DNA from: Coriolopsis trogii
Lineage: Eukaryota > Basidiomycota > Agaricomycetes > Polyporales > Polyporaceae
NCBI GenBank assembly: GCA_020543525.1
Contig: JAHYIO010000030.1
Coordinates: forward strand, 124,001-188,000
Length of the DNA: 64,000 nt
Direction of reading: 5' to 3'
This document shows positions 37,368-59,086 of this stretch, one piece after another; the stretch's first letter is position 1; the number at the start of each line of letters is the position of its first letter. The notes below the pieces were generated by a model that was not told the origin of the DNA, searched no databases, and saw only the letters and a program-made list of their open reading frames with translations. The translations under genes and the position numbers were made by a program.

Positions 37368-40300
37368 CTAACTTCGCAGTACATCATCGTTCTGATCCTG
37401 TCCCAGCCCACGTATGCTCACGAGCAAGGTAGAAAGACATTTCTCCATGTTATACCCGTTTTCCTCTAGAATCGAGTCAATGGTCTCGCTCTTTGCCGCC
37501 GCGTCCGGTATATCTCTTTCACTTGACTGGTGTTTGTCGAAGGATTGCATGGCGTGCCTGTGGAGCATCTTCCAGAGATATTTGGCTAGGAGTTGCATGT
37601 GCGTTGTATTGTCGCCCCCATGTTTGGCCGCATAATTTAACAAGAACTTGATCCCGTAGAATTCCGGCTGGTCCCAAACTATCTCTGTCGTCAGTGCGAG
37701 GGAGCGTTTCCTGGACAGCTCCTGCGGGTCCGACCCCGCATACAGCTCGTAAAACTCTTCTTTGAGTTTCTGTCTCAGTCTGTCGACTCTCTTGTGGGCA
37801 TCTGGGTTTGCGGCTCCTTTCTTCTTGCCTAGTCGTTTGAGCGTGTCACTGATGTGTTGAAGTTTGTTGTCAGCGCCCCTGTACAAAGCCCAAAGTGCGA
37901 CCCAGCACAACGATTCACGGTCGTGATCGGGAGTGCGCGAGATTGCTTTACCAAATCTCAGCGCGTTCAACACCCTAACCGGCAGAAAACTCAATGTCCC
38001 CTAGATGTCGGGACCACGAAAGTCAGTCAATTGAAATCTACTCGGACTTGTTGCTGACTGACCGTAATGCCGTCACCGGGCCTTTTCTTCTCAATTTGTA
38101 ACCTGGCCATTTCCTCCTCCATATCAGGGGCCGGTAGTAAGGATGCGAACTCGAAGTCCGTTAGAAAGCCTCCCATGTCGTCCGAGCCCGGGCCGAAGTG
38201 CTCAATTTCGATGCCTTCTGCCTGACCTGCCCCTGTCCTCCCTTTCTGAGGAATGTAGGTAGCCAATGCCCGGATCAAAACATTGCCGGCGCTGACATCT
38301 CGATGTAAAGCACCCTGCGAATGGAGCTGGTCCAGTGCTGTACAAATAAGCGTATCAGAGTACAATCCCGGCACACAGGGATGGACTGGATGTCGTACCT
38401 CCAGCTACGTCCCGAAGTGTTGCTACGAGTTCTTCAAGACTCTCCCAATCCCAAATAGGTCTCCCGAATGTGCTGAGCAAAACGCATTGAAGCTGCCTGT
38501 CGATGACGTTGTTGACCACGATCGGTTTCAGAGATTCAAAGCCTCTCAGCCGGCTGACGGATTGATCCCTTCCAGGCTCTGGGTCCGCTTCGTCCGATTT
38601 CATATCGCCCCCTGCAAGAGCTTGCGCAAGTCCCTTTGGAGGAGGAAGGCGGGCAAATGCGAAACGCCTCGCAAATTCCTGATATATCTCGTATTCGGTG
38701 GCGCGACGACTGGTCCTCCAGGATAGCTTCAATATAGATGCAATCGGGGGTTTATTGGGGTCGCGGGGGTCCCGAGCCAACACATGCCAGACCCATGATC
38801 CATGACCGAGGAGAGCTGTGTGCGCCACCCACACGGGTCTCCCGATAGTGGTACAAATGTATGCTCCCTGGATATCCCCTTGAGGAATTTTCACCTCGAA
38901 GCGTGGGTAGTCGTCGCTGATCAACGACTTCTTGCCAGCTCCGACTCGGACTGTCGTCTCATTGTCTTTCCGAGTACTATAACGTGTCCGGGGAGCTTCC
39001 TGAATGCGCTGGGGCCAAGCGTACAGATCGTGGCCTGCGACGACTTTCACAGTAGGATTTTGACCAAGATCCACAGGCGTCATCTCGAAGGTGAGGCGAA
39101 GGATGATGCGAATGAAGGTGCGCAAGCCCGAGCCAGCATCTGAGTCTGCCTGTGCCACTTTGTCGTCGCTGACCGTGGTGATGGGAATGTCCGGAGAGAG
39201 GACTATCCCACAGGGGTCGAAGTATCCAATACAGACACGATGACCGCTGATGAAGATCCCGTACACGAACAGTTGGAACGGTCGCCCCGTGAAGATTAGC
39301 TGGGCGTAGTCGGCTCCTTGAGCTAGCGTCTTCATTGCGTCACCCTTGATCACGGCCTTGCGCTCATCCTCTTTCTCCGAGTCTATCTCAGGTTCCGATC
39401 CTTCGGAGTCATGCTCATTCTCCAAGTCTCCATCACTGATGTCTGAGTCGGACGACTCAAGGTCGAGGTCTCGCATACCAGCAGTAACTTCATCATCGGG
39501 ATCCGAGTCCTCTGCATCACTGGATGGCGCTGTCCCGGAAGCGTCGTTGTCTAACCCCCGCACATCACCCCCAGCTCCTGTACTGGGCACGGAGCCCTTC
39601 AAGTGAGATCTGGCTTTGCTTCGGGTTTCACGAGCCTGGATTTGGCTGCCCCCATGCCTGAGATAAGCTGGCGAGGATTTGTAGCTCGACTTCACTTCAA
39701 TGAATGATGAGCAACTTTTCAAGTGCAAATCCCTTGGAGCTATATCATACGGGCCGTACGGCTTGTTCTTAGCAGGATACTGTGCATGCTTGTTGCTTTT
39801 CCTGCCTGGAATCTCCATGGTCGGTGGCCGGGGAGGTACATCTGCAACGATGAAGTCGGGTTTTTTCCGAAGCGATGTGCCGTAGACCGGGTCGTCGAGA
39901 CTGAGGATTTCCTTGTCTTTCGGTACAATCTGCCGAGTGTGAGGATGCCTGAGTTCTTTGTATGCTTGAGCCTGTATGGTATCCATGATATTGGCCTTCA
40001 GTGTAGTGTGGTAGACGGTGTTTGATTATGAACTGTGTTATGCACTGAATAGTAATTACGCAACATACCAGCGGACCGTAGAGCTCCTGTTCGTTCTTTG
40101 TATCCTTACTGATAGAGATTCTAGCCACAGTCTCCAGCTCCTTGTCACATTCAGTTTTGACATATTTGAGGATCTTGTCGACAGACTTCTCATTGAACGA
40201 GAGAGGCCTCGTGCCAGCGTGATGCCCGCCCCTAGTAGCTGGGAAAGTACCGAGGAACTTGTCGAGGATCTCGGTTTTCTGAGCAAGGATAGTGTTGGCG

Positions 40301-41939: not shown

Positions 41940-42497
41940 GTTGTGCGCTCTCGAATTGACCGAACGGGGCCGCGGTTGCTTGCCGAGGAGGGACATCTGC
42001 TATGAGGTAGTCTGGCATTTCACAAAGGGGTGTGTCATAGATGGGGTCGTCGAGAGCGAGGTCGTCCGACTCGTCCGAGTCGCGCGTCTCTTTTGGTACA
42101 ATCTGACGAATGTGAGGCTCTACGATCTCAATATACGCTTGCTTCTGGATGATATCCATGATCCTGCTCTATACGCGCGATAGGGAGCACCGAGGGTCAG
42201 CTTTGCACTGCGACGAGACCGAATGGGGACGTACCAGAGGGCCGCGAAGCCTCTTCTCGCTCCGAGCTTCTGTGAGGCCAGAATTCTTCGCTATTCTTCG
42301 CAGGTCGTCACCACAGTGAGCTATGACAATGCTTAGTATTTCGACCTCCTGATCGTGCGAGAGACACCGAGTACTGGCCTGATGTCTCTCTTTGTACCAT
42401 CCTGTGCGGTCCCAAAAAATCTGTCCAGAACCTCCCTTTTGTTGTAGAGAACGGTCCCTTTGAGGTCCGATCCCAGATGCTGGCGGATCCTTGGCAT
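41940..42497 (-). pseudogene. FunK1 N-terminal fragment, frameshifted
   Basis: The segment starts MPRIRQHLGSDLKGTVLYNK and VLDRFFGT, closely matching the start of FunK1 copy 1. The frame then shifts, and homology resumes in another frame at LSHDQEVEILSIVIAHCGDD and EKRLRGPL. After an intron-like gap comes MDIIQKQAYIEIVEPHIRQI and then DDPIYDTPLCEMPDYLIADV. Homology ends near 41970, and unrelated sequence follows. The kinase domain is missing altogether. A truncated, frameshifted pseudogene is the best reading. Confidence 0.8.
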
Positions 42498-42942
42498 GAC
42501 GCGAGATGAGTTCTCCAGGCGGTGTCAGTGCAGAACGTACGAAAGGGGGGAGGGGGGTAGGTCAAACCGAATGCAGGGTTAGAGTGCAGAGGACATACCG
42601 TTCGTTCTGCTGGCGCTGCGCAGCACGTTGACCGCGCCCGAAACACGAGTCCAGCTGCAGTACGCGGCGGCACATGTCACGTCAAACATATCGGCTCGTA
42701 CAGCGCCTGCTGGTATAATAGCACGCCAGCGACTGAGGACAAGGACGACCTCGAGTGGGTGTCAGACCTGTAGAAAGAGCACAGTACGGACCTCTCTTCT
42801 CCACCTGCGACTCTCCAAGTCTATGTACCTATTCCGCGCCCATTCCCTACCCTCTGGCCAGCTGACCTCACCAAACATCGGCGTTCACATCGAGCGTAAA
42901 TGCTTGTGGGCAACATGAAATTGCAGAAATGCGACGCGAGTG

Positions 42943-43045
42943 CAGCAACATGCAGCAACCAATGCAGCGACGTGCAGCGATTGGTGCAGCGACGTGCAGC
43001 ATCAGACGCAGACATGCACCAGAAGCAGACATGTGCAAGGTTGTG

Positions 43046-43050
<5 letters not shown>
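42943..43050. repeat. Short irregular GCAGC-type tandem repeats
   Basis: Several imperfect copies of TGCAGCGACGTGCAGC and related TGCAGCAA units occur in succession just before the AG microsatellite. Confidence 0.7.

Positions 43051-43080
<30 letters not shown>
43051..43080. repeat. AG dinucleotide microsatellite
   Basis: An uninterrupted AG run of about 30 bases, visible directly. It lies about 430 bp beyond the LINE stop codon and may be part of the LINE 3' terminus. Confidence 0.95.
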
Positions 43081-43085
<5 letters not shown>

Positions 43086-43509
43086 CATTTGGTATCGTGG
43101 CAGTGAGGCCGGTTTCGGCCGAAGGTGCCACGTCCGCTTCTACGCTACAGTATCCGAGACTATAGGTGTGTACAGTATGGGTCCGGGTGTGCACTATCGA
43201 TACAGGAACGAGATCGAACAGAAGAGAAGCGACATGCGAGAGACAAGAGGACAGAGCGAGAGGGCGTAAGAGCATGGTAGGCGAGAGGGACAGCGTGTCC
43301 GGGAGGTTGGTGGCAGAAGGGGGAAGGCCCTTCGAGTAGCGACGGGACGAACTAACGCAGCGGTAGTGCTGCGTAGTGTGTGAACTACAGTAGGTATCGT
43401 ACAGAGAGAGGGGAAACGAGATGACCAAAAGAGAGAAAAGTAAGAAGGGTGCAGGCCCAGAGCGAGCGGGGAAAGGAACCGGGATGGGAAAACGGGGGCA
43501 GTGAACCAG

Positions 43510-44322
43510 TCAGGAGGAAGAGGAGAGGTACGCGGTGAAGCGGCCGGTGGCGTCGACGTACTCCAGTACCGCTGCCCGCGCCTTCGGGTCGCCGATGGTG
43601 GTGCGCAGGGAGAGCGGGCCGTCGACTGCGGTGCGCAAGGTGTGGCGGGCGGCGATGAAGCGGCGGCATGTGAGGATGTAGTGGGCCACAGTCTCAGGGA
43701 CATTGCAGACTGGACATAGGGGAGAGTCGACGGCGCGGATGCGAGAGAGGAACCGGTTGAGCCCAACGTGGCCGCTGCGGAGCTGCGACAGGATGCTACA
43801 GTGACGGCGCGGAAGGCCGCGGTGAAGCTTGGTAGCACCGCGCCCCGGGGGCGCGCTGTCGACGACACGTTGAAACCGGCGGCCTTGCGGGGACTCCTCC
43901 CACAGGTGTGTCCACTGATGGTGTAGGTCCTCAGTGTAGCAGTTCCGGACGTTTTCCTGATGCGGCGCGCTGTCGACGACACGTTGAAACCGGCGGCCTT
44001 GCGGGGACTCCTCCCACAGGTGTGTCCACTGATGGTGTAGGTCCTCAGTGTAGCACTTCTGGAGAACGGAGCGGTGGGCACCCAGGGTGTGGAGCGTGGT
44101 GAGGACGGACTTCGGGAGCGTTTGGGAGACCGAGGACTCGTGGCCGTCGGCGGCGAGTTCCGCGTCGTCGTGAGCCTGACAGCGAACGTGCTCGAGTGCG
44201 CCGCAGCCCCGGCCGGGAGCCCAAATGACGCGAAGTCGGAGGGCTGAGGCCGGGTGATGGCGTTGAGCCTCGTCATGAAGAGCCGGACGAGTGGGTCGTC
44301 GGGTTGGGTGGAGAGGGCAGTA
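43510..44322 (-). mobile_element. LINE remnant, C-terminal part of ORF2 (RNase H-like end and Cys/His domain)
   Basis: The minus-strand frame ends in a domain typical of the C-terminus of fungal non-LTR retrotransposon ORF2 proteins. It reads HCSILSQLRSGHVGLNRFLS, then the Cys/His cluster SPLCPVCNVPETVAHYILTC, then RRFIAARHTLRTAV, and stops at 43510. Upstream lies LRLRVIWAPGRGCGALEHVR and AHDDAELAADGHE, which resembles the end of an RNase H domain. The segment is broken at 44322 by a CACTA-like element and continues at 46656. An in-frame 114-bp tandem duplication repeats YTEDLHHQWTHLWEESPQGR. A frameshift between the RNase H halves near 44240 marks it as decayed. Reverse transcriptase is not in the window. 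Confidence 0.78.
43851..44063 (-). repeat. 114-bp in-frame tandem duplication within the LINE
   Basis: The sequence starting at 43851 (GCGCGCTGTCGACGACACG) recurs at 43965, giving a period of 114 bp or exactly 38 codons. About 95 bases of each unit match almost perfectly. The duplicated peptide begins YTEDLHHQWTHLW on the minus strand. Confidence 0.93.
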
Positions 44323-45460
44323 CACTATGGCGCCGGAAACCCTTAATATCTCGCGGTTGTACCCCGAGAATTGTCGGTTCTCCGGTACCACCTTCGTTTT
44401 TTTGCAAACTGTTGATTGTGTGGTCACGTCTCTACCCTGCATTTACGCAGCAAATCCCTTCCCGGCTATTTCCGGGCCTTTGAAGCTCCGCTTCGTTGGA
44501 CTTCACGTCGCAATTTGCGTCCTCTCTCCAACAGGCGTGCGCGTCGTCCCCCCCTGTAAACGTCCTCCTCCCTCGCGGCTTCAAGCTTCGTTGATGTCAT
44601 CACTGGGCCGCAGCGGTGCCTCTGTATTGCGGCGGCATCGCCTCATTGCTTGGAGCTGGTTATATTCTCTGGGCATACTCTGGTACTTGCCCGGCTACAG
44701 ATATCTGGGACTATATCTGGTGGCTCTGTGGTGTCCCTTCTTGTCATGCTTAGTCTTGGGCTGGGTTCTCTGCCGCTTCTAGTATCTTGGAACTTGTAGC
44801 TCTCTGCCTCTGCTGGGTCTCAGTTTGCATCCCGCCATTCTAGTCCCTAAGTCCCTGTGATGAGTTGGTCGCCATACCGATGTTAGTGCTGGCGGCAAAC
44901 GGTACGCACACAAAGCCTGGTATGATATGTTCTTGATCCTGACCAGTGCCAACAGCGGGGGAGCGCTGTGGATGAACTCAGGGTGGCAGCGCTAGTCAGC
45001 ATTTACCATGCGCATCATTGACTGTTGCGCAAGAGGGCAGGGATCTCAATGATGAAGGAGATGTCAATGCTGAGAAGGATGAGGTCATAGTGTCGGGTAC
45101 GGTTCACACTGACAATTGCAAGTAGTGAATGTCTCATTGTTACATGTACTGTACATATGCTCTGTTGTGTCCGATATGTTCCTTACGATGTTCACATACA
45201 CTCTGTGTCTCTATCATATGATATATACTGCCATGTGTTGCCAAATGGTGTGTTAGAATGCCTGATCTTGAGGTGGAACACTGAAATGCCCGCAGAAAGC
45301 AGTCACGGAATCACCTGTTCCGAGTGTCTCATTTCGCTGTGGATTTTGCAGGGTACACGAACATATGCTAACCTTCTATTTTCAGCGGTTTTCGGTGAAT
45401 ATCCTGGGTTACACAGGGGATATGTACAGTGGAAAATCACCGGTACTCACGTCCATAGTG
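44323..45460 (+). mobile_element. CACTA-like non-autonomous element, copy A
   Basis: A 1138-bp element that begins CACTATGGCGCCGG and ends with CCATAGTG, so the termini share an 8-bp perfect inverted repeat starting with CACTA. No transposase domain is visible. The longest frames (163 and 105 codons) have no family likeness. The flanks are GTA on the left and TTG on the right, which is not a duplication as it stands. It is the left arm of a palindrome with copy B. The CACTA/EnSpm assignment rests on the terminal motif and the inferred 3-bp target duplication. Confidence 0.85.
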
Positions 45461-45514
45461 TTGCCCCCGGGTGACCCGCGCCAGCCTCTTAGTCCCGGAC
45501 CGCGCAGCAGCTAC
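45461..45514. other. 54-bp palindrome spacer, apparently inverted LINE sequence
   Basis: This lies between the two CACTA-like copies. It begins TTGCCCCC and ends CAGCTAC. Flipping it gives copy A flanks GTA/GTA and copy B flanks CAA/CAA. It also supplies 18 codons (including the two target sites) that join the LINE frame on either side in phase. Confidence 0.8.
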
Positions 45515-46652
45515 CACTATGGACGTGAGTACCGGTGATTTTCCACTGTACATATCCCCTGTGTAACCCAGGATATTCACCGAAAACCGCTGAAAATAGA
45601 AGGTTAGCATATGTTCGTGTACCCTGCAAAATCCACAGCGAAATGAGACACTCGGAACAGGTGATTCCGTGACTGCTTTCTGCGGGCATTTCAGTGTTCC
45701 ACCTCAAGATCAGGCATTCTAACACACCATTTGGCAACACATGGCAGTATATATCATATGATAGAGACACAGAGTGTATGTGAACATCGTAAGGAACATA
45801 TCGGACACAACAGAGCATATGTACAGTACATGTAACAATGAGACATTCACTACTTGCAATTGTCAGTGTGAACCGTACCCGACACTATGACCTCATCCTT
45901 CTCAGCATTGACATCTCCTTCATCATTGAGATCCCTGCCCTCTTGCGCAACAGTCAATGATGCGCATGGTAAATGCTGACTAGCGCTGCCACCCTGAGTT
46001 CATCCACAGCGCTCCCCCGCTGTTGGCACTGGTCAGGATCAAGAACATATCATACCAGGCTTTGTGTGCGTACCGTTTGCCGCCAGCACTAACATCGGTA
46101 TGGCGACCAACTCATCACAGGGACTTAGGAACTAGAATGGCGGGATGCAAACTGAGACCCAGCAGAGGCAGAGAGCTACAAGTTCCAAGATACTAGAAGC
46201 GGCAGAGAACCCAGCCCAAGACTAAGCATGACAAGAAGGGACACCACAGAGCCACCAGATATAGTCCCAGATATCTGTAGCCGGGCAAGTACCAGAGTAT
46301 GCCCAGAGAATATAACCAGCTCCAAGCAATGAGGCGATGCCGCCGCAATACAGAGGCACCGCTGCGGCCCAGTGATGACATCAACGAAGCTTGAAGCCGC
46401 GAGGGAGGAGGACGTTTACAGGGGGGGACGACACGCACGCCTGTTGGAGAGAGGACGCAAATTGCGACGTGAAGTCCAACGAAGCGGAGCTTCAAAGGCC
46501 CGGAAATAGCCGGGAAGGGATTTGCTGCGTAAATGCAGGGTAGAGACGTGACCACACAATCAACAGTTTGCAAAAAAACGAAGGTGGTACCGGAGAACCG
46601 ACAATTCTCGGGGTACAACCGCAAGATATTAAGGGTTTCCGGCGCCATAGTG
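45515..46652 (-). mobile_element. CACTA-like non-autonomous element, copy B (inverted)
   Basis: The same 1138-bp element as copy A in opposite orientation, with exactly the same length. Only isolated differences are seen, for example C/T in TAATATCTCGCGG versus TAATATCTTGCGG near the outer end. It begins CACTATGGACG at the inner side and ends GGCGCCATAGTG at the outer side. The flanks are TAC (inner) and CAA (outer). The near identity of both copies suggests a recent insertion or homogenisation by gene conversion. Confidence 0.85.
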
Positions 46653-46655
46653 CAA

Positions 46656-46942
46656 GCCAGGAGTGCGCTCAGCCCCAAGGTCATCGCTGCGAGCACGCCA
46701 TCGCGTGCCTGCCGATGGGTGTTGTGCAGCGATGTGTACAACTGGTTGTTTCGTAGTGCAGGCAGTACATGTGCGGTTTGCAGCGACCGGTCATGGGAGT
46801 GCAGCAGTAGGCCACTTAGCCGACGCTCAGACGCTCTGTTTTGCTGGCACTGGCAGGGACCTTCAGCTACTGCTCCTCCATTCTCCAGCCTTCGCGTTAC
46901 TCCCGTGACCACCCCTTTCTCCCCATCCATTACTGCAACCAC
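46656..46942 (-). mobile_element. LINE remnant, continuation beyond the CACTA-like pair
   Basis: On the minus strand the frame is open from 46942 down to the element border and reads NNQLYTSLHNTHRQARDG and then AAMTLGLSALLA. With the spacer flipped and single target sites, it continues in phase through the spacer into TALSTQPDDPLVRL. That layout fits the middle of an RNase H domain. The upstream limit is unclear. Confidence 0.6.
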
Positions 46943-47111
46943 AGAGCTGAAACTCGGTACAAGTGGACAAGCTGCTCAGACTCCAGGTATGTCATGAATC
47001 ATATTTGCCTCCAATCCTGTTGTCCCCTCCACTTTGCCCGCAAGCCTGGTCTTGCGTATGGAGCCAGTGTCCTCGGATTCCTTCACGCATACAACGCACC
47101 CTCCTGTTAGG

Positions 47112-47330
47112 CCCGCCATGGGGCGGCGGCCGCAGTTCAATGGAGCATGGGCTCCAGAGGCTGGCGGCAGCCTGACTGTTGCACTTCTGTGGGCGCGACA
47201 CACATAGGGTGTGCTGGGAGTCATGCGGATGAGTCTACCATGGGGTAGCAGCCGAAGTCCGACGAGGCATGGGCCTCTGAGGCTGGCGGCGACTTGTCCA
47301 TAGTGCATGAAGAGAAAGCCCTCGTTGTAA
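47112..47330. repeat. Imperfect two-unit tandem repeat, about 120 bp period
   Basis: The unit around CCATGGGGCGGCGGCCGCAG with GAGGCTGGCGGCAGC recurs as CCATGGGGTAGCAGCCGAAG with GAGGCTGGCGGCGAC about 120 bp later. The similarity is partial. Confidence 0.6.
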
Positions 47331-47440
47331 GCGGCTGGCAGTGCGTTCCGGGGGTCACTGTCTCTTTACGTGAGCCTATTCATCTTCGCAACCCACACCA
47401 CAAGAGTATGCCTGTCATATAGACACAATGTGGTCGCGTT

Positions 47441-47469
47441 CGCTGGGTCGCACCATGGCCCTATGAGCA
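47441..47469 (+). repeat. Short dispersed repeat, copy 2
   Basis: Reads CGCTGGGTCGCACCATGGCC followed by CTATGAGCA. It matches copy 3 about 84 bp downstream and copy 1 at 41721-41757 in inverse orientation. Confidence 0.7.
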
Positions 47470-47524
47470 ATTTCCGCAGTTGTGTCACTGACCTACAAGC
47501 AGTTGTTATCGCAGTGCACGATCA

Positions 47525-47553
47525 CTCGCTGGGCCGCACCATGGCTCTATGAG
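47525..47553 (+). repeat. Short dispersed repeat, copy 3
   Basis: Reads TCGCTGGGCCGCACCATGGC followed by TCTATGAGC, with single-base differences from copy 2. Confidence 0.7.
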
Positions 47554-48229
47554 CGAATCTCCATTGCATCAGGCAGACAGCTGTGTTGAGGACATGGCAC
47601 GAGCTTCGTTGGTCGTGGACGTCACTAGTTTATTTCTCTGAATCTTTAAGTCTCTTCCGTCAACTTCGCCATTTTAGCCTCCTATGTCCCCGCCTAACGC
47701 TGACGTCCTCCGCATCCCTCGGTGTAAATTTATCACAGTGCATACCGCGGATTATGAAAGGTGTGCATTGTCTGTATACTCTATTGTCATTTTTGCTTCC
47801 GCATTCACTAATGTTGTCGCCCGCTACAAGGCGAGTATTGAGGAACAGCTCTAGCGCATGGGCCTAATCTGTGACCAGCCCTGACAGCCCTGGCACGCTA
47901 CCGGCCTTGCAAGCTCCCAACCCCCAATGCCAGGTGTCGCAGGCCCCAGAGCGCGGACAATCCTCCGCCGGAGCATGGGTGCGCGTCAGACGTACAGCGC
48001 GCACCGGCGTAACGTTGGACACATGTCTGCCGCACCCCAATCACGTTCACAACATGATGAACTTAACGCCAGGTAAGCATCTTTCCCCTTCCCCCTATGC
48101 CCGATGTTCCTCCTTGACGCTTGCTGGGCCAGGATGAGGCGCGCGACGGTGAACGAGCATTCACCCCTTCCTGGACATGCATGGCCCTCTCATGAAGAAC
48201 AGTCACTGACCTCTCGTTTCTTTTCACAG

Positions 48230-48946
48230 TTCGTCCAATTCAAGCCTGACAGCGCTGTCGCCCTCTCGCTCTGAGGCCTCGCAGTGCTCCACCACACTTA
48301 TGCGTGGATGGCGCAGGGCTCAGACCCGGACGCGGAGATGTCCGCCGCACGTTACTAATACAACCGCGAGCTCTCCCTGCATGGTCTGCAGATGAAAGGG
48401 CGCCGGCAGTACTGGGATGCGGATGCTGTCGCCACCGTGCAGCTCTGCAATATCGACTGGCCATCTGTCCGCCATCTGGACCTTATCCAGGACCCGTCGA
48501 CAGTGCTCTATCACCGCTTCCCCGGCACGGTAGTTGCGCAGACCGCCCTCGCGATCCTGCCGCAGCAACTCTTCGACCGACGCAGGCCGCTGGACTCGGA
48601 GCTCTGGCCAGAGGCGTACTACCGTTGTGGGTTCATGGTCCACAACCCGGCCACTCGTGAGGTGCTCTTCGATCCTACGTCCCAGTGCGGAGAAGGGGAG
48701 CAAGACATGCCGGGGAGCGACGTAGCTGACGACGACTCAGACAAAGAGCATGACGATGGTAAAGAGCACGGGGCCGACGAAGACACATCCGATGAAGAGT
48801 CTGACATAGACTACGAGACGGACAGCGATGCAGATGACGCACTCACGAATGACGACAACGCGGAGATTGCAGGAACGTCGTTCGATAGAGATACCGTCCT
48901 TGACGCCTTCGCCCAAAGTACGGAAGCCAGACTCTGGGACTTCTAG
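48230..48946 (+). pseudogene. Acidic-tailed hypothetical protein gene with two in-frame stops
   Basis: After an acceptor at about 48229 a long frame reads FVQFKPDSAVALSL, a TGA, GLAVLHHTYAWMAQGSDPD, then SAARY, a TAA, and YNRELSLHGLQMKGRRQYWD. It then runs on without interruption to a very acidic Asp/Glu tail and ends EARLWDF. The same frame before and after both stops looks protein-coding, so this is probably a decayed gene. Translation could still start at ATG 48392 and give 184 residues. Both stops could come from single C-to-T changes (CGA to TGA, CAA to TAA). No family is recognised. An alternative frame joined to an upstream exon (MSAAPQSRSQHDELN) is also open for about 70 codons. Confidence 0.5.
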
Positions 48947-49048
48947 AGAACTTGAGTGTTCACATCGATTTCATTCATGTTCATTTGACCGGTATCACGA
49001 TACAGTGCTGTTATCCTCTCCGCAGAGGCCCGGGGTCAGAATACGCTA

Positions 49049-50407: not shown

Positions 50408-53228
50408 TCAAGGCTGAACCTCAGCCTCCCGTATCTTTTCGAGGAGTTCGGTAAGCCACTTCACCATGTCCTTCTTCGGGTCTAGCGAGGGATGATGGAA
50501 CTGATCGGAGAGCTTGCCAATCGTCATCCAGAGATATTCTGCCAAATTTGCTAAGTGCGTCCCGGCTGGATCCCCATCAATACGTGCTTGATTAGCATAT
50601 TCCAACAATGCTTTGATCCCTTCGAACGACCCATCTTTGCTCTTTGTTAGTACGTCGAGGCGGTGCAGGTACAGTTCCCCCGCATCTTGGTAAGAAAAGA
50701 TAACCTTGAACTCGTTAGTGAGTTCATTGAGATGATCGTTGATTTGTTCTTTTGCCCTGGACAATTTGGTTGATGTCGAGGAAGGGCACTCTGGCTTGTT
50801 CATGATTTTGGTATACTCTTTGACGACATGCTTGAGCTCCCGTTGAGTGCCCTCGTACAGCGCCCAAAGGGTGACCCAGCACAGGGATTCAAGGTCATGA
50901 GCAAGAGTGCGCGAGATCACTTTGCGATCCCTGATTGCACATAAGAGAGACAGCGCCATGCAGGTGATTGTCCCCTAATAGCAGATTAACGTCAGTTTGT
51001 CAATGTTAAGAGCGCCAAGTCAAATCCACTAACCGTGATACCGTCTCCAGGCTGCTTTTGCTCAATTTGCAACTTGGCCACTTGTTCATCTTCACTCCGG
51101 TCAGGCAGAAATGACGCGTACTCAAAATCCGCCAGGAATCCTCCGACGTTGTCCGATTTTGGGGGAAAGTGCCCAACGAGGATCCCTTCCTCTTGATATT
51201 TGGCACTGCCAGGCCTCCCCATAGCAGGACTGTAGGTGGCCGACGCTCGTATCAGGATATTGCCCGGGCTGATATCTCGATGGAGAAACCCCTGCTCATG
51301 GAGCTGGTCAAGTGCTGTATGGCTCATTAGGTCAGAATTGGAGTGTGCTCTAAAACGATGGTGCTGACATACCTCCAGCCACATCCCGAATGGTTGCTAC
51401 GAGTTCTTCGAGAGTTTCGTACTTCCAGATCGGTCTCCCAAATGAGCTGAGCAAGACGCAGTGAAGCTGTCTGTCTACGACGCGGTTGTACTCGGCTGGT
51501 TGGAGTGTAGCCCCTCTCAATTGGCAGACGGACTGAGGCTCGCCGTTATCGGACTTCATGTCACCCCCCGCGAGAACCTGCGCAACTCCTGTCGGGAACG
51601 GACACTGTGCCTGTGCAGAACGTTTCTCAAGCGTCCGATATATCTGGTACTCGTTCATGCGGCGGCTCGATCGCCAGGCAACCTTCAATATGGATGCAGT
51701 TGGCTGACTCGGAGCATCGGCTTCGGGATGCCTATGTCGAGCGATCACGTGCCAGACCCATGATCCTCGGCCATGGAGGACGGAGTACGACCTCCACACA
51801 GGTTTTCCCACTGTGGTGCATGTGTACGTCCTCTGATCATCCCCTTCGACGGGGACCTCCAACTGGAATCGTGGGAAGTCGTCGGGTATTAATTCCGGTA
51901 TCTTGCGAGTAACGTCTCCAAGCGGCGCCGAGTTGTCCTTGCTCCCAGTCTTCCGGGCAGCCGTCGCGCTGGGCCTAGCATTCAAGTCGCCTGAGACTAT
52001 CTTCACCGTGGGATTTGCACCGAGCTCTACATCCTCCATCTCGAAGGTGAGGCGAATGATGATGCGGATGAAGGTGCGTAAGCCCGAGTCAGCGTCCTCC
52101 AAGTCCTTCGATGATCCCTGATCTTCGACCATGGTAAGTGGAAAATCTGGGGATAGCACAATTCCGCAAGTGTCGAAGTATCCCACGCAAACACGATGGC
52201 CGCAAATGAAGATGCCGTACACAAATAGATGGAACGGTCGCGCGGTGAGGATCATTTGGGCATAGTCGGCTCCTTGAGTCAGTGTGTTCAACGACTCCCC
52301 TGTGATTACGGCGGGTACACCCTTCTTCTTGGAAGGATTGTTGAGGTGATGGGTTAAGTAGCGTAAGCGGCCGAATATCATTCTCTGCTTCAGACCTTGA
52401 AGAAGATTATCTTCAATAGAGGCATCTGCACCTCCAGGTCCCGTTCCATCCCTTGCTTTGCTCTGCTGTTTGGTTTCGGCTGTCCCCTCAGATTTCAGGT
52501 AGGCCGGAGAGGCCTTGTAACTCGATTTCACCTCAATGAACGAAGGACAACTGTGCAAATCCAGGTCACGTGGGGCTATATCACAAGGGCCGTATGAAGG
52601 GTTGCCCTTGGGATACTGAGGAGCATCCCGCTTTGTTCCCGTACTAGCCGTCTTTGGGATAGCGACGTCTGCAAAGAGGTAGTCTGGTTTTTTGCCGAGT
52701 GTTTTCTCATAGATGGAATGATCGATGGAAATTTGTGTGCTGTCCTTCGGTATGATCTGACGGCGGTGATATTTGTTCGTATGTGTAAATGCTTGTGACT
52801 GTATGGTGTCCATAATCTTGGTCTTGGGAGAATTAGGGTGAGCACATGACTGCAACGTAGCAGGGGCGGTTCATGACATACCAGATGCTCGGAGAGACCC
52901 TGTTTATTCTGAGTCGTTGCGACAGATATCTTAGCCATCTCCTCCAGGTTGGTGGAACAGGTCGTCTTGACCTGTGTGAGAATAGCATCAAGGGCCGATT
53001 CGTTGTGAGAGAGAGGCCTTGGGAGACGCCTGCCACCGGTGGCGTCAGGAGGAGTCCCAAGAAACTTGTCCAAAATCTCCTGTTTGTTCATGATGACGGC
53101 CTCAGCAATGCTTGGCCTCATGTTCTTGCGGTAATCCTTGGTTTGCACGATGTGGCTCGGGGGAATATAGTTGTGACTTGAGCCAGACTGTGTGGAGATA
53201 GGGCGGTTTGAGTTGCAGGGTAAGACAT
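50408..53228 (-). CDS. FunK1-type fungal protein kinase, copy 3
   Basis: Third FunK1 paralogue. The N-terminal exon reads NYIPPSHIVQTKDYRKNMRP and then EILDKFLGTPPDATGGRR. The second large exon has MDTIQSQAFTHTNKYHRRQI, the FunK1 block GADYAQMILTARPFHLFVYG and ICGHRVCVGYFDTCGIVLSP, and ends AGGMSAPSF. The catalytic loop is FLHRDISPGNILI and the metal motif is ADFEYASFLPD, with Tyr where the others have Phe. The C-terminal exon has ALSLLCAIRDRKVISRTLAH and LESLCWVTLWALYEGTQREL, with the stop at 50408. The conserved ATG at 53228 is out of phase by one base with NYIPP, so either a short intron or a frameshift lies at the N-terminus. Its 3' flank (ATTCATACATGC with CACTCCTT) resembles that of copy 2. 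Confidence 0.8.
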
Positions 53229-57548: not shown

Positions 57549-59086
57549 ATGGCCTCGAATTCAATCCACGATATCGACTCGCGGGCCACGCGTCCGTCTT
57601 CCCATCTGGCAGATGCATCGCAGCAAGCCTCCAAGGCTTGGACAGAGTGTGCCAACGTAGTCAAAGTACATCATGACGAGACAATAAAGCGGTGGAAGGA
57701 CGAGATTGACACGCTCCTGGTATACGTCAGTAAATCACCACAACGGACGTCCATCATGATCGTGCAGTGTTCTCAATGTGCCTTTACACCGTACAGGCTG
57801 GCTTGTTCTCCGGGGTAATCACCGGTTTCAACGTCCAATCCTACGGCTTGTTGCAACCGTCCTCGGACGATATGGCCCTAGCGCTCCTCGCCCAAATTTC
57901 GGGCCAGCTCAGCAGCTTCTCGATTCATCCCCCTTTCGTGAACTCCACGCTTCCGCTCGTCGTGCCGTCGTCACTCACTAACCATGTGCCCACTTCATTT
58001 GTATGGATTAACACGCTCTGGTTCTCAAGTCTCATATGCAGTCTGTCAGCTGCGTCCATCGGCATCCTAGTGAAGCAGTGGCTGCACGAAGCTCTCGTAG
58101 GACTTTCATCAGACTCGCACGAAACCGCACGTCTCCGTCAGCACCGCTACGACGGCCTCAGACGATGGCACGTAGGGACCATCGTTGCAGCGCTCCCGGT
58201 CCTCTTGCAGGCGGCCGCCATCCTCTTCTTTGCCGGGCTGCTCGTCCTGCTCTGGACGTTGCACCCCATGGTCGCGACGGCCGCATCCGTGCTCGTCGGG
58301 ACGCTCTTCCTCTTCCTCATCTCGACCACTGTGTTTCCGGCGTTCTCGGACAACTGCTCCTACAGGTCCCCCCAGTCCCTCGGGTTCTTCCTCATGGTAC
58401 AAAGCTTTGGCCGCCTCTGCCGTCCCGCTTTTAGCCTCACGGGCCATCTCACCAGACCACGATGGCAGCGCAGCGCGAGCAGTCGATGGCTCGCAGCCCT
58501 GCACCGCTCCGCGCTCTCCATCGTGCACAGCGACTGGGGCGCGTTCCGCGGATGGGCCGGTCGGGACCGCGTCTCGCTCTCTCTAGCTGTGAACGAGCTC
58601 GACGAGAACGTCATCCGCACGGCCGACACGCTCCTCCTCGATAACCGCTTCCTAGAGCAGACCATCCGCCCGTGCGTGCGCTCGTTGCCGTCGTGGAGCG
58701 CGGCGAGCTGCTTCAGGAAGATCTCCCGGGGACGGGTGCAGCACTTGGGGCCGCTGTGGGGGCGGCATGGCTCGCTTGGGTATGGCGGCGACGCTGTCGT
58801 GGCGCTGAGCTTGGACGTTGTTGAGCGGTGCGTTGCGGACCCGGTCCGACTATACTCTGGAGCGGACCTGCGGCTCGTTGCGAGGGAACTTCTTGGATGC
58901 GTTCAGTACCCTGTCTCGGAAGGGCAGCGATGTGGGAAGGTTGTTGCTGGTGTTATAGGTTTGGGAGGACAGTTTCATGAGGACGTGGTGGAGGCGCTGG
59001 GTATGAGAGGTTGCCTGGCTGACGAGTGTTTCCTCGAGGGGGAAATCGGGGATGGTGCGTGTTTCGCGTGCGCACGTCCCGTCTGA
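57549..59086 (+). CDS. DUF6535-family membrane protein
   Basis: Basidiomycete-specific membrane protein of unknown function. Exon 1 encodes MASNSIHDIDSRATRPSSHL and ends WKDEIDTLLVY. A GTCAGT...TACAG intron (about 57726-57796) joins it to AGLFSGVITGFNVQSYGLLQ. That junction, ending in a pre-transmembrane helix, is the hallmark of DUF6535. Hydrophobic segments follow around FVWINTLWFSSLICSLSAAS, IVAALPVLLQAAAILFFAGL and ASVLVGTLFLFLISTTVF. The cytosolic C-terminal half, of about 250 residues, is Arg-rich with no known domain and ends CFACARPV. The total is about 488 residues, short for the family, whose members often carry long helical C-terminal regions. The family is expanded in Agaricomycetes. 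The 3' end lies opposite the partial gene at 59087-59511. Confidence 0.85.

Follow-up and report, generated by a model that had tools for sequence, protein, structure and literature searches.

Hybrid-element insertion, also called sister-chromatid transposition, is named for P elements and Ac/Ds in the parts of PMC8225341 drawn on here. According to sections of PMC2775673, hybrid-element insertion results in an inversion that is flanked by two inverted identical copies of the element, with no loss of sequence. Delprat et al. state in these sections that hybrid-element insertion and ectopic recombination have similar outcomes, except that the copies are identical after the former and chimeric after the latter (PMC2775673). 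The Galileo copies at inversion 2z3, an ectopic recombination product in Drosophila buzzatii, were reported there to be chimeric over 53 variable sites (PMC2775673). In maize, reversed-ends transposition of Ac is described, in the passages cited, as requiring two pre-existing elements and losing the segment between them (PMC8225341). The same passages mention non-standard transposition of impala in Fusarium (PMC8225341). Fungal EnSpm (CACTA) elements of the CMC/CMCT clade have CAC...GTG ends and 3-bp duplications, as summarised in one part of PMC12730594. Within the literature reached by our search, much of it in excerpt, there was no report of hybrid-element insertion by a fungal CACTA element.

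We analyzed a window of 64,000 nucleotides from Coriolopsis trogii in which two CACTA elements of 1138 bp, designated A and B, lie in opposite orientation around a short spacer. The pair resembles the products of P element and Ac/Ds hybrid-element insertion, as far as the excerpts describe them, in having inverted identical copies and no loss of sequence. It differs from them in involving a fungal CACTA element, in the very short inverted segment of 54 bp, and in being a historical rather than an experimental event. Galileo inversion 2z3 shares with A and B the opposite copies at the breakpoints, the exchanged duplications and the lack of a deletion; in contrast to the chimeric copies reported in the sections cited, A and B show no chimerism, with just 3 differences by which to judge. 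In reversed-ends transposition of maize Ac, too, a transposon mediates the inversion, elements lie at the breakpoints and new duplications arise, but the process is described in the excerpts as losing sequence, whereas the alignment across the A/B junctions has no missing codon and no loss was seen. The impala element, although different, is also a fungal cut-and-paste element that causes rearrangements by non-standard transposition, according to the passages cited.

The mechanism is known, and the A/B pair would be a clean fungal example of it, showing how a cut-and-paste element can generate a long palindrome together with an inversion in a single step. This type of rearrangement is known but rarely caught. 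The present case is small and fully readable, with protein homology giving the ancestral orientation independently. Such palindromes are expected to be fragile, and isolates of the species could show the frequency at which they are flipped or lost.

Structure of the element pair

Copy A occupies positions 44323-45460 on the plus strand and copy B, inverted, positions 45515-46652 on the minus strand. The 54-bp spacer between them (45461-45514) is an inverted piece of a LINE. A preliminary description of the locus had reported these coordinates, the element ends and their opposite orientation correctly to the base. It had also reported mismatched flanks, and these were observed: A is preceded by GTA (44320-44322, plus strand) and followed by TTG (45461-45463), and B lies between TAC (45512-45514) and CAA (46653-46655, plus strand). 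TAC is the reverse complement of GTA and represents, on the minus strand, the inner copy of the target duplication at the site of A, GTA being the outer copy. TTG is likewise the reverse complement of CAA and the minus-strand inner copy of the second target duplication, of which CAA is the outer copy. The reverse complement of the spacer starts with GTA and ends with CAA, so that flipping the spacer alone restores GTA/GTA around A and CAA/CAA around B. The chance of this had been put at about 1 in 4,000, which agrees with the value for two 3-bp matches under uniform base composition (4^-6 = 1/4096). The distances given, 48 bp between the insertions and 54 bp between the elements, are both right, the latter counting one 3-bp copy per end. 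Each of the four junctions was exact: the 3-bp copies were complete and there was no footprint.

Alignment of A with B revealed 3 mismatches, at element positions 30, 220 and 523, each with C in A and T in B; the inner 615 bp are identical between the two copies. Position 30 is C in all 9 other complete copies found in the genome, and two of these, L009 and L010, have C at all three positions. The more distant copies are gapped at position 220, and at position 523 they are either gapped or, in six of them, carry adenine. Since L009 and L010 share the base of copy A at each of the 3 differences, a comparison of the copies indicates that the changes most likely arose in B. All 3 of the B-private changes are C to T, and 2 are at CpG; this fits cytosine methylation followed by deamination, at a small number of sites.

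Together the two elements form a near-perfect palindrome of 2.3 kb. When treated as single-stranded DNA, the central 254 nt were predicted to form a strong hairpin (z -32).

Orientation of the spacer within the LINE

The preliminary description placed the pair in a LINE fragment, and protein relatives support this placement. The left flank (43513-44322, minus strand) contains a C-terminal LINE part with an open frame of 270 codons, and the right flank (46653-46714, minus strand) contains the roughly 20 codons that precede this part of the LINE. One relative in the same genome, 32% identical over query residues 171-264, possesses endonuclease, reverse transcriptase and RNase H domains, and RNase H was also seen in another same-genome relative of the left flank. 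No Pfam family was matched by the window's own frames or by the relatives P0003 and P0004.

Nine LINE relatives were obtained by protein search and six of them were aligned. Four proteins (P0002, P0003, P0004 and P0007) were compared with window positions 42001-49000 by tblastn. P0003 matched the right flank on the minus strand with residues 139-162, the spacer on the plus strand with residues 159-186 (E 7e-4), and the left flank on the minus strand, in two frames, with residues 176-401. The match of P0003 next to the element (44321-44250) is in a frame other than that of the 270 open codons, so that the fragment carries a frame change near 44250-44313. P0004 matched the left flank on the minus strand and the spacer on the plus strand (E 2e-6), and gave no tblastn match in the right flank. 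Neither P0002, which is without most of the stretch, nor P0007 gave a tblastn match in the spacer; the alignment row of P0007 at the spacer reads IPRVTKATILLDNQAAI despite this.

Flipping the spacer and deleting a single copy of either duplication gives a frame that reads ALLACPRVTRASLLVPDRAAATALSTQPDDPLVRLF. This sequence aligned without gaps with P0003 and P0004 through the right flank, the flipped spacer and the left flank. The flipped spacer scored 79 against P0004 and 59 against P0003. Shuffled controls, scored against P0004 only, gave a mean of 18.9 and a maximum of 32 (300 shuffles). The reading of the spacer in its present orientation was rejected: its scores of 31 (P0003) and 21 (P0004) fall inside the P0004-scored shuffle range, and it is out of register with the flanks. 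Because LINE proteins match the flipped spacer, the ancestral orientation is known independently of the duplications. The flanks code on the minus strand and the spacer on the plus strand, as expected if the spacer has been turned around with respect to the LINE, and the proposed inversion is thus confirmed at the level of the assembled sequence.

An intact LINE copy matching the spacer as it now lies would have spoken against an inversion. At the DNA level no intact LINE copy was found in the genome, and the left flank had no other DNA match there. DNA relatives of the right flank were considered as a possible LINE copy and rejected: the best is about 79% identical, and their similarity starts 71 bp into the flank, in what is a different repeat. 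This dispersed repeat begins by about position 46724, is about 79% identical to places on contigs C8 and C6, and includes motifs of 28-29 bp that match more than once. Within the LINE fragment, positions 43850-44063 contain a tandem duplication of 114 bp, with 100-nt copies that are 98% alike; it repeats about 38 codons of the reading frame and is absent from the six aligned LINE relatives.

Other copies and CACTA/EnSpm assignment

At the DNA level, the genome (38.8 Mb in 39 contigs) gave at least 20 matches. By place, these correspond to A, B, 9 further complete copies, an end of a larger element that lies on contig C2, and a partial match (L018). Copies beyond those found may exist, and the results of the genome search are lower bounds. 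A, B and each of the 9 further complete copies found carry the ends CACTATGG...CCATAGTG, which form short terminal inverted repeats. In A, one end agrees with the other at 8/8 bases, beyond which they diverge. Each of the 9 copies is flanked by a 3-bp duplication (CCC, TCG, CCC, CGA, AAA, CCA, CCA, ACG and CCC). The two CCA copies have common flanks (99.97% over 3.1 kb), and the 9 copies therefore represent 8 distinct sites. A duplication length other than 3 bp, which the preliminary description had regarded as contrary evidence, was sought, and none of the 9 further complete copies found had one; nor did the flanks of any of these agree over 4 bp. Among the complete copies found, mismatched flanks were seen only in A and B, and no further copy of the 1138-bp type was among the matches listed.

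The larger relative (C2:14716-20443, 5728 bp) is flanked by a CCT/CCT duplication and encodes a protein with a Transposase_21 domain (PF02992, E 2.9e-23). Its right end, CCACGGTG, has two changes compared to CCATAGTG. The earlier assignment to CACTA/EnSpm is upheld by the 3-bp duplications in 9/9 other complete copies found and by the Transposase_21 protein of the larger relative, whose ends are similar. A and B agree with the fungal EnSpm elements, as these are described in the part of the source cited above, in ends and duplication length. In contrast to such elements, the 1138-bp copies overlap no Transposase_21 match, and the end sequences that they have in common with the larger relative extend over only about 94 and 120 bp (69% and 74% identical).

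Transposase_21 matches were found at 12 places in the genome, none of them on the contig that carries A and B, and 9 of the 12 were examined in longer stretches. The C2 element was the one locus of these 9 with ends like those of A and B. Paired CACTA-like ends with candidate 3-bp duplications were seen at 3 of the remaining 8 loci, and CACTATGG ends were absent from these 3 candidates within 10-kb stretches, a span that longer elements would escape. Subterminal repeats in A were limited to short two-copy ones. From its sequence, the 1138-bp element is best called a CACTA/EnSpm element that is presumably non-autonomous, and a relative of the C2 type was probably the source of transposase for A and B.

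A possible second CACTA-like element was observed at the Transposase_21 match at C3:2512015 (L033), with ends CACTGTGTGCCCCA / CACTGTGCGCCCCG (12/14), an AGT duplication and a length of 6031 bp. On contig C2, a segment at least 6 kb long is directly duplicated (G000 C2:333597-339703 and 349545-355652; L014, L015, L079, L080), its copies at least 99.9% identical and about 16 kb apart. Each copy holds an element of a related type of 1107-1108 bp.

Relationship between A and B

Ten sites (positions 138 to 880) separate A and B from their nearest copies, L009 and L010, and no site supports another grouping. At 5 of the 10 sites, the base shared by A and B occurs in none of the 9 other copies. Deletions of 13 bp and 25 bp in A and B are present at full length in none of the 9, which show shorter gaps there. 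L011 agrees with A and B at 4 of the 10 sites (138, 721, 726 and 867), and six more distant copies agree with them at position 880. By this comparison of copies, A and B are a sister pair. With 11 copies in 38.8 Mb and random placement, independent insertions within 54 bp would be expected 1.5e-4 times; independent insertions so close together are improbable.

A search for chimerism, which had little power, found 0 sites that pair A or B singly with L009 or L010; at all 3 positions where A and B differ, the change is confined to B. Gene conversion of the inner part was also considered, given that the 3 differences all fall within 523 bp of the outer end of either element. This pattern has a probability of about 10% by chance and the limit was chosen after the fact, and it was therefore not used.

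Origin of the pair

The preliminary description had taken two independent insertions followed by a crossover as the simplest history. As the simplest history it was not supported: truly independent donors would leave the sister relation of A and B (10 versus 0 sites, and two deletions) unexplained, and would also require the improbable proximity calculated above. We lean towards the view that one hybrid-element (sister-chromatid) transposition made the pair. Copy A, a short, presumably non-autonomous CACTA/EnSpm element, would first have gone into GTA within the LINE fragment. Once replication had yielded two sister copies, a transposase, which probably came from a relative like the C2 element of 5.7 kb, would bring together the left end of one of them and the right end of its sister. 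The hybrid end pair would then insert into CAA, 48 bp away. In one step this would create a second, identical, inverted copy, invert 54 bp and split both 3-bp duplications.

A string model of hybrid-element insertion that started from A alone gave the observed length, with 3 differences from the observed 3000-bp string; this is the number by which A and B differ. A crossover string model, given A and B, matched the observed string exactly because both copies were its input. The string models do not choose between hybrid-element insertion and crossover. The locus shows the inverted identical copies, exchanged duplications and lack of sequence loss associated with hybrid-element insertion, and the copies now differ at 3 sites. 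Our preference for a hybrid-element event is based on the near-identity of the copies and the lack of visible chimerism, the latter with little power.

The near-identity of A and B is also compatible with a crossover, since an earlier local duplicative transposition would leave the same sequence. In this alternative, the second insertion arose by local duplicative transposition of the first, and crossover between the inverted copies (NAHR) then turned the spacer around, perhaps more than once. Long inverted repeats that are nearly perfect and closely spaced are recombinogenic, the center of the palindrome is predicted to form a strong hairpin as described above, and in a freely flipping pair the flipped state comes at no extra cost. 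We place this history second, as possible though rather unlikely, because inversion may come easily to a near-perfect palindrome after it has arisen; this history needs two events, however, and the chimerism expected of it is not visible, although 3 differences leave little to see. Sequence cannot firmly separate hybrid-element insertion from local duplication with crossover. Mismatched flanks could also result from an assembly artefact, in which the spacer was joined the wrong way between the 1138-bp arms and the real chromosome carries two ordinary insertions. Over their inner 615 bp the two arms do not differ, so that short reads could mis-orient the spacer, and a random choice would be wrong half the time. 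The assembly itself suggests long reads, however: at least 3 telomere hexamers were present at 9 of 18 sampled contig ends (both ends of C3 and C4, and neither end of C27, the contig studied here), N bases were absent from the window and from 81 loci, and the two copies of the C2 direct duplication were kept apart. The orientation of the spacer is not proven by these features, and we consider its mis-orientation unlikely.

Less probable still is an origin in which the two inner ends were cut by transposase and the spacer, once excised, was joined back in reverse, or in which a replication template switch took place. Either route would be topologically possible. End-joining after excision usually leaves changes, whereas the junctions of A and B retain full 3-bp copies and are free of such changes.

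If hybrid-element insertion did produce the pair, the locus might, tentatively, be read as a base-exact natural record of sister-chromatid transposition by a fungal CACTA element. The element would have been doubled, and the palindrome may keep inverting its 54-bp core; it is plausible that the pair flips back and forth.

Other features of the window

Scans of the window for tRNAs and for Rfam families gave no matches. Two related Pkinase_fungal frames were observed on the minus strand, one on each side of the element pair (38355-39986 and 51350-52855), with common DNA stretches that are 78% and 71% identical. Positions 57767-59086 encode a DUF6535 protein. Among the best 120 of its 341 database relatives, the closest is 61% identical, and these relatives include proteins from Lentinus, Trametes and Ganoderma.
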